The translations under genes were made by a program, and so were the position numbers. Shown piece after piece: positions 52,535 to 54,131 of a stretch of 64,000 nt of DNA. The notes under the pieces were generated by a model. The model saw only the letters and a list, made by a program, of their open reading frames with translations, made no database searches and had not been told where the DNA came from. Position 1 is the first letter of the stretch. Each line of letters starts with the position of its first letter. The stretch comes from an uncultured Arthrobacter sp. (lineage in GTDB: Bacteria; Actinomycetota; Actinomycetes; Actinomycetales; Micrococcaceae): contig NZ_CANLXP010000005.1 in assembly GCF_947495145.1 (NCBI RefSeq), positions 117,673-181,672 on the forward strand, read 5' to 3'.

Positions 52535-52608
52535 TGGAGCGGGCGACGGGAATCGAACCCGCGTATCGAGCTTGGGAAGCTAGCGCTCTACCATTGAGCT
52601 ACGCCCGC
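52535..52608 (-). tRNA. tRNA-Gly (anticodon CCC), CCA encoded
   Basis: The minus strand folds as a 71-base tRNA plus encoded CCA: acceptor GCGGGCG/CGCCCGC, D arm GCTC-AATGGTA-GAGC, anticodon loop TTCCCAA (CCC), T arm GCGGG-TTCGATT-CCCGT and discriminator T. The anticodon stem CTAGC/GCTCG has a U-C mismatch at 28-42. It reads GGG codons. Confidence 0.93.
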
Positions 52609-52712: not shown

Positions 52713-53006
52713 TCAAGAGCCCTCTTCGGGTTTATCCTCGCGCTGGCCGGTTGAAGCGTTCTTGACCCGTTCCACCAACTCCTTCCAGGGGCCCTGGACC
52801 GCGCTTTCGGCGACCGTCACCTCGCGGTAGCCAACGGCGATGTGATAGACGTAGCGGTCGCGTTGCGTTTCCTCGGAGCCGCCGGGATCCGCCTGATCGA
52901 GAAGCGGCAGCCAGCGTTCCTCCGCCTCGGTGGAGCTCACGTCCACACTCCAGGTACGGGTCAACCCAGCGAACCCCCCGGAGCGCGACACCTCAATGCG
53001 CGTCAC
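52713..53006 (-). CDS. Emfourin-like protealysin inhibitor
   Basis: A 97-aa protein: MTRIEVSRSGGFAGLTRTWSVDV ... DRYVYHIAVGYREVTVAESAVQGPWKELVERV. The RSGGFAG start and the strand pattern fit emfourin, the inhibitor encoded next to protealysin-like M4 peptidases. It overlaps the peptidase gene by four bases (ATGA), so enzyme and inhibitor are made together. It would bind the active site in the cytosol and protect the cell. The last 15 residues are polar. Confidence 0.85.
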   Translation of the reverse strand: MTRIEVSRSGGFAGLTRTWSVDVSSTEAEERWLPLLDQADPGGSEETQRDRYVYHIAVGYREVTVAESAVQGPWKELVERVKNASTGQREDKPEEGS

Positions 53007-54067
53007 AGCACGCCCACCTCCCGCCAGGCGTAGCCGACCGACTCTGCCTCCGGGGATCCTGCCCCGAACCGCGCCTCCGCGGCATCGACGGTCACTGAAG
53101 CGAACAACGCGAAGTCGCAGTCGACGGGGACGCGGCCGCCGGTGGCGGCGTCATACCAGATCTGGCCAGCGCGCTCCCAGGCGTTCCCGCCGAGCCGCAT
53201 GGCGGCAATGTAGAAGGCGTGATTCGGGATGCCGGAGTTGATGTGTACGCCGCCGTTGTCCGAGGTCGTGTCGACGTAATCCGCCATAGTGGCGGGCTGT
53301 GGATCCTTGCCGAGGACGTCGTCGTCGTACGCGGTTCCGGGAGCCTTCAGCGAACGCAGCGCGCGCCCCTCCACCTGCTCGGTGAAGAGGCCTTCGCCTA
53401 CCAGCCAACTGGCGGCGTCCGCCGACTGGCCGCGCTCGCGCTGCTCAACCAGTACACCGAATACATCCGAGAGCGATTCATTGAGCGCGCCCGACTGGCC
53501 CTGATACCGCAGGTTTGAGGAGTACTGGGTGAAGCCATGCGCAAGCTCGTGGCCGATCACCGCGAGGGACGCCGTGAAGCGCCCGAAGATTTCCCCGTCA
53601 CCGTCACCGAACACCATCCGGGAACCGTCCCAGAACGCATTGTCATACTCCCGGCCATAGTGAACCGTAGCGTTCAGCGGCAGGCCGGCATTGTCAATCG
53701 ATGACCTGCCGTACACCTCCTGGAAGAGCTCATAAGTTGCTCCGAGGCCCGCATACGCTTCATCCACCGCCACATCGCCAGTAGGCGGGTCACCCTCACG
53801 GCGGACCGGCTCTCCCGGCAGGGACTCGCTGCCGCCGGCGTCGGAAATGGTTCGGCGCAGCGCCAGCACGACGGCGGTTCCGGCCCCGCGCGACGGATCC
53901 CGGGGAGCGTCGGCGCGTGCGCTGTGGATCGGCTCCAGCTGCACAAGCGCACGCTGTGCCGCAGCGGCGGCATGCTGGTGTTCCGGAGCCTGGAGACTGG
54001 CCAGCCTGGCCAGGAGATAGGGCGGAACAATACTGCAACGAATATGGGCGGATGTGGGTGCGGTCAT
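53003..54067 (-). CDS. M4 family metallopeptidase, protealysin type
   Basis: A 354-aa thermolysin-family peptidase. The zinc motif is VIGHELAHGFTQYSS (HELAH 173-177), the third ligand is in GALNESLSDVFG (196-201), and a catalytic His region follows near HINSGIPNHAFYIAA. The short propeptide holds IVPPYLLARLA, the protealysin PPSL-like segment, and no signal peptide is seen, so it may be cytosolic or exported by an unknown route. GAGGAGG precedes the ATG. It is coupled to an emfourin-like inhibitor. Confidence 0.92.
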   Translation of the reverse strand: MTAPTSAHIRCSIVPPYLLARLASLQAPEHQHAAAAAQRALVQLEPIHSARADAPRDPSRGAGTAVVLALRRTISDAGGSESLPGEPVRREGDPPTGDVAVDEAYAGLGATYELFQEVYGRSSIDNAGLPLNATVHYGREYDNAFWDGSRMVFGDGDGEIFGRFTASLAVIGHELAHGFTQYSSNLRYQGQSGALNESLSDVFGVLVEQRERGQSADAASWLVGEGLFTEQVEGRALRSLKAPGTAYDDDVLGKDPQPATMADYVDTTSDNGGVHINSGIPNHAFYIAAMRLGGNAWERAGQIWYDAATGGRVPVDCDFALFASVTVDAAEARFGAGSPEAESVGYAWREVGVL

Positions 54068-54131
54068 GCGGCCTCCTCGGGTTCCTCCAACCTAGCGGCC
54101 GCCCCTGACAGTCTTCAATGGTTCGAAGAAC

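Follow-up and report, generated by a model that had tools for sequence, protein, structure and literature searches.

Overlapping genes in Arthrobacter encode a protealysin-like metallopeptidase and an emfourin-type inhibitor

The window, by which we mean the whole 64,000-nucleotide stretch analysed from an uncultured Arthrobacter sp. (contig NZ_CANLXP010000005.1, positions 117,673 to 181,672), encodes a protealysin-like M4 metallopeptidase followed by an emfourin-type inhibitor (Table 1). We propose that the two genes form a translationally coupled module in which a cytosolic protealysin-type zymogen is kept together with its antidote and would become active upon lysis or damage, a reading to which we assign a probability of roughly 0.7. 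The pair is of a known kind: emfourin was first known from Serratia, where S. proteamaculans carries the operon pln-m4in, and RefSeq already applies the label 'protealysin inhibitor emfourin' to such genes, on plasmids of several phyla. The protease likewise belongs, as an unremarkable member, to a known family, and offers one structural idea that can be tested. What may be new here is a family-wide cysteine just before the Pro-Pro (PP) motif of the propeptide.

Table 1 Features of the protease–inhibitor locus and related phage genes
Feature	Position	Strand	Details and basis
Protealysin-like M4 metallopeptidase precursor	53003..54067	-	354 aa, ATG start; ORF, Pfam, phmmer
HELAH zinc-binding motif, residues 173-177	53537..53551	-	Sequence, alignment
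Glu197 in GALNES, expected third zinc ligand	53477..53479	-	Invariant column
His275 in VHINSGIPN, expected catalytic histidine	53243..53245	-	Invariant column
Propeptide motif C11-S12-I13-V14-P15-P16-Y17-L18-L19	54011..54037	-	Sequence, alignment
Cys11, P2 of protealysin first autoprocessing site	54035..54037	-	Register from PMC6778150
AGGAGG Shine-Dalgarno of protease, four bases 5' of start	54072..54077	-	Read from sequence
Emfourin-type inhibitor	52713..53006	-	97 aa, GTG start; Pfam PF20242
GTGA four-base overlap, protease stop / inhibitor start	53003..53006	-	Sequence, coding strand
GGAGG within protease gene, likely inhibitor Shine-Dalgarno	53017..53021	-	Read from sequence
tRNA-Gly(CCC), conserved downstream neighbour in Arthrobacter	52535..52608	-	Synteny comparison
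Phage M4 proteases	L123:3525-4424, L124:3483-4379, L125:3498-4397; viral loci L206-L245

Pfam identifies the M4 C-terminal domain (E = 2.7e-53) and the M4 catalytic domain (E = 9.1e-28) in the window protease, and the HExxH motif, distal glutamate and catalytic histidine of the catalytic domain are all present. In phmmer searches, the protealysin precursor 2vqx was the top solved match (E = 7.1e-112, the next M4 enzyme reaching E = 5e-50). This alignment starts at residue 12, thereby covering the propeptide along with the catalytic domain. An AlphaFold model built from 62 window and locus sequences had a mean pLDDT of 91, and Foldseek with this model again ranked 2vqx first, over 344 columns with a TM score of 0.95 (target length). 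In place of the long FTP/PepSY propeptide, the enzyme carries a short one with a PP(L) motif, whose residues P15, P16 and L19 are invariant in the protease alignment. The Pfam protealysin-propeptide model PF16485 did not match the window protease, indicating that its propeptide is far diverged. The M4 domains and the propeptide-spanning match to 2vqx uphold the initial annotation of a protealysin-like peptidase with a PP-type propeptide.

The same annotation held that the enzyme lacks a signal peptide. No more than eight codons separate the ATG from the preceding in-frame stop, and a search for a hydrophobic segment at the N terminus found none, with no 12-residue window exceeding 1.3 on the Kyte-Doolittle scale. 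Sec export via a hidden signal peptide is thus excluded. Many M4 enzymes are secreted, and we therefore weighed whether this is a usual secreted neutral protease whose start was misannotated; given this refutation of Sec export, and a short propeptide that resembles that of protealysin, we lend this possibility virtually no credence. As far as the sequence can tell, the protease would be expected to accumulate inside the cell.

The inhibitor matches the Pfam Emfourin family PF20242 (E = 6.5e-12; 46.1 bits against a cut-off of 27), and its structure model reached a pLDDT of 85. Comparison with the PDB by phmmer, by profile search and by fold search with the model returned no emfourin. A similarity to Fis1 in the phmmer search (E = 0.028 and worse) was discarded as a chance match. 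The overlap of four bases claimed in the initial annotation is exact to the base, and Arthrobacter homologues keep an overlap of four or one bases. Together with the overlapping start and stop codons, the GGAGG inside the protease gene suggests translational coupling. No promoter or terminator was recognised at the locus.

The proposed working of the pair draws on Serratia. There, protealysin builds up in an inactive precursor form, with maturation following lysis (PMC6778150, PMC11172720). Its first cut falls just N-terminal to the PP motif, between Ser and Val of Ser-Val-Ile-Pro-Pro (PMC6778150). Serratia emfourin binds the active-site region of protealysin and inhibits it 1:1 (PMC9505478, citing earlier work). 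Deletion of the inhibitor gene lowers FtsZ, reduces culturable counts by 20–30% and brings forward the drop in optical density (PMC9505478). By analogy, the window protease would be blocked by its propeptide, inhibited 1:1 by its partner, activated at lysis and toxic without the inhibitor. The short propeptide would position its PP motif at the primed subsites, and emfourin made from the overlapping gene would bind any active protease, which would keep the enzyme silent in the living cell. This double lock of propeptide and emfourin, modelled on Serratia, may be supplemented by Cys11 as a metal-binding latch, an element proposed here only. Separation, processing or dilution of precursor and inhibitor would then yield active protease, most plausibly at lysis or severe damage. 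The release by lysis suggested in the initial annotation is supported by analogy with Serratia protealysin. For actinobacterial protease–emfourin pairs, the open literature searched yielded no measurements of activity or inhibition. Emfourin comes up there in just two papers, in keeping with the earlier description of the pair as little studied in Gram-positive bacteria, although it is abundant in actinobacteria.

We compared the first 100 homologous loci, which come from Arthrobacter, Streptomyces, Microbacteriaceae, Nakamurella and other groups and include a few cases of the same contig under two collections. Emfourin lies directly 3' of the protease on the same strand in 99 of them; in the sole exception (L059), the contig ends 46 bases past the protease. 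Chance pairing is thereby excluded. Across 39 Arthrobacter genomes, 34 carry both genes and five carry neither, and a random coincidence of the five absences in both genes has a probability of about 2 in a million, before any correction for kinship. These counts add to the evidence for joint retention or loss of protease and inhibitor.

The linkage is strong but not absolute. A survey at class level (297 genomes) gathered proteases by single-sequence search and counted emfourins with a custom profile, A2, because a genome search with PF20242 missed the emfourin gene of the window itself. An emfourin was found within 2.5 kb of 79 of the 106 protealysin-like matches; at the threshold used, the other 27 had none within that distance. 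Weak, divergent emfourins turn up beside a few of these 27; most of the 27, largely from family code f98, have none that is recognisable, and the inhibitor is thus not universal. Protealysin-like genes in f98 and a few other families (L174-L198) carry the conserved cysteine and mostly have no detectable emfourin. One order-level relative fuses protease and emfourin in a single reading frame (L121:268-1764) through a low-complexity linker rich in Ser, Thr, Gly and Ala, with both Pfam domains passing the cut-off. At another locus (L117), about 1.2 kb with another gene, probably for a membrane protein, separates the two.

Emfourin-like genes also occur away from any adjoining protease in three Arthrobacter genomes (L138:2129-2386, G010:C1:2959566-2959817 and G337:C9:750826-751077). 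The first scores under the Pfam cut-off and, from reading the sequence, lies near pyridoxamine-oxidase-like and GAF/ANTAR-like genes. These stand-alone genes could be orphan immunity genes or could have another target. Broken protease genes in G010, G013 and G017 were considered as natural knock-outs and set aside; the G010 and G017 stretches contain runs of N, and G017 has frameshifts as well.

In about 28 distinct Arthrobacter loci, the gene order is fixed as dcd-tdo, protease-emfourin and tRNA-Gly(CCC). The dcd-tdo flank comprises dCTP deaminase and tryptophan 2,3-dioxygenase, the dioxygenase being undetected at one locus. Against six relatives, dN/dS is 0.07–0.13 for the protease and 0.09–0.20 for the inhibitor, compared with 0.01–0.06 for the deaminase and 0.03–0.11 for the dioxygenase. 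Both protease and inhibitor are under purifying selection; the inhibitor drifts fastest, and nothing points to an arms race. Searches against the PADLOC defence models gave no match for either protein. Core synteny, purifying selection and the lack of a PADLOC match together disfavour a mobile defence device. The role in defence raised in the initial annotation finds no backing in this fixed core position, in the joint presence and absence of the two genes, or in selection that is purifying rather than diversifying. In Arthrobacter, a common soil actinobacterium, the protealysin–emfourin module is instead documented as a stable core locus, serving a core function that is inherited vertically.

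Related M4 genes are also carried by the Streptomyces phages Kela, Quantum and Frankenweenie and by about 30 viral contigs, some of them duplicates of one another. Most viral copies start with C(T/S)FIPPH(M/I) or similar and retain HExxH. No recognisable emfourin lies near the viral M4 genes; in some of these loci the contig ends a short way beyond the protease, where an inhibitor could have escaped notice. This pattern is consistent with emfourin shielding cells from an enzyme that they themselves store, and raises the question of whether host emfourin blunts the phage protease. In phage Quantum, gene 10 (L124:4376-4663, 95 aa) overlaps the protease by four bases and has no family match; HMM and Pfam searches ruled it out as an emfourin, and it is possibly an unrelated partner. 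On one viral contig (L214:3967-6078), a protealysin-like gene with the motif Cys-Cys-Phe-Val-Pro-Pro is followed not by an emfourin but by a gene for a patatin-like phospholipase, which again overlaps it by four bases.

These phage genes bear on the idea of an anti-phage or abortive-infection device, in which infection would destroy emfourin and free the protease. The toxin-antidote logic suits such a device, and the phage copies indicate that the family does meet phages. Yet what the phages carry is the protease and not an anti-inhibitor, and the locus shows core synteny rather than a defence island, with no PADLOC match. We consider this function very improbable.

The other function to be weighed has the protease reach competitors through lysis, vesicles or a secretion device while emfourin protects kin. 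For Serratia, such a toxin–immunity role was put forward in 2022, with FtsZ and RecA as cleaved proteins (PMC9505478). The protease–antidote layout is typical of these systems, and the extra emfourin copies lying away from the protease in some Arthrobacter are placed as orphan immunity genes would be. Against it, a search of this genome for a contractile baseplate gene (Baseplate_J) found none, and its one clear WXG100 protein is unlinked to the locus. The locus is moreover core and syntenic, and its purifying selection bears no mark of an arms race. The interbacterial action suggested in the initial annotation thus has a published precedent in Serratia but no support in this genome, and we judge it unlikely here.

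From 183 protealysin-like sequences we derived a non-redundant set of 104 at 80% identity, and 81 of these 104 have a cysteine three to five residues before PP (59 at −4, 21 at −3 and one at −5). In 47 of these 81 proteases, no further cysteine follows it. Cysteine content elsewhere averages 0.14%, and the next most cysteine-rich column reaches 13%. The residue is seen in Actinomycetota, Pseudomonadota, Cyanobacteriota, Bacteroidota and phages, its carriers including Pseudomonas, Caballeronia, Mesorhizobium, Rhizobium, Nostoc and Hymenobacter. It is absent from Serratia protealysin, from a Klebsiella homologue and from many Microbacteriaceae; His, Arg, Thr or Ser often replaces it. Alignment to protealysin puts the first autoprocessing site between Ser12 and Ile13 of the window protease, and the cysteine mostly occupies P1 or P2 of this known site.

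In the precursor structure 2vqx, the PP is reported to sit at the primed subsites. With cleavage one or two residues after the cysteine, its thiol would be expected near the zinc in the precursor, which makes a cysteine switch plausible. The cysteine would then ligate the catalytic zinc, its oxidation or another thiol modification would trigger autoprocessing, and emfourin would serve only as a back-up. Several observations speak for this: the cysteine recurs in several phyla, at −3 or −4 in 80 cases; it coincides with or adjoins P1/P2 of the established autoprocessing site (PMC6778150); and lineages without a recognisable emfourin retain it. Others speak against it, as Serratia protealysin and many Microbacteriaceae do without the residue, the tree forces at least seven changes at the site, and in Serratia the segment upstream of the autoprocessing site is removed inside the cell. 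On balance, we regard the switch as possible but doubtful.

With the same reserve, we tentatively extend it to the family. Most protealysin-like proteases might be cysteine-switch zymogens, in which the cysteine at −3 or −4 caps the zinc until oxidation or metal stress opens the precursor; emfourin would add a further lock, retained in bacteria that keep the enzyme in store and absent from the phages that carry it. A zinc latch formed by the cysteine would, if real, provide the protealysin family with a redox trigger and would explain how a non-exported intracellular protease is held and released. No mention of this cysteine was found in the open literature searched. That the prototype protealysin lacks it would explain why it went unremarked.

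Among known systems, the M4 'metalloproteases' of phages Kela, Quantum and Frankenweenie resemble the window protease in being short, in their CTFIPPHM or CSFIPPHM N terminus and in their HELGH or HEFGH motif, but have no recognisable emfourin adjoining. Thermolysin and the bacillolysins share the M4 catalytic fold with its zinc and catalytic motifs; unlike the window protease, with its short propeptide and no signal peptide, they are Sec-exported and have propeptides of about 200 residues. The cysteine switch of matrix metalloproteases offers a likeness in working principle only, a conserved propeptide cysteine that in the window protease would be expected beside the catalytic zinc; those enzymes belong to another clan and have another propeptide fold. 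The pln-m4in operon of S. proteamaculans is closest. It differs in that protealysin has Arg at P2 where the window protease has Cys11, and the window propeptide falls outside PF16485; the window host is an actinobacterium without an outer membrane, and the neighbouring genes are different. In both, however, an M4 enzyme with a short propeptide and no signal peptide is followed by emfourin in one operon, and the window protease matches 2vqx over its full length, in sequence and in fold.
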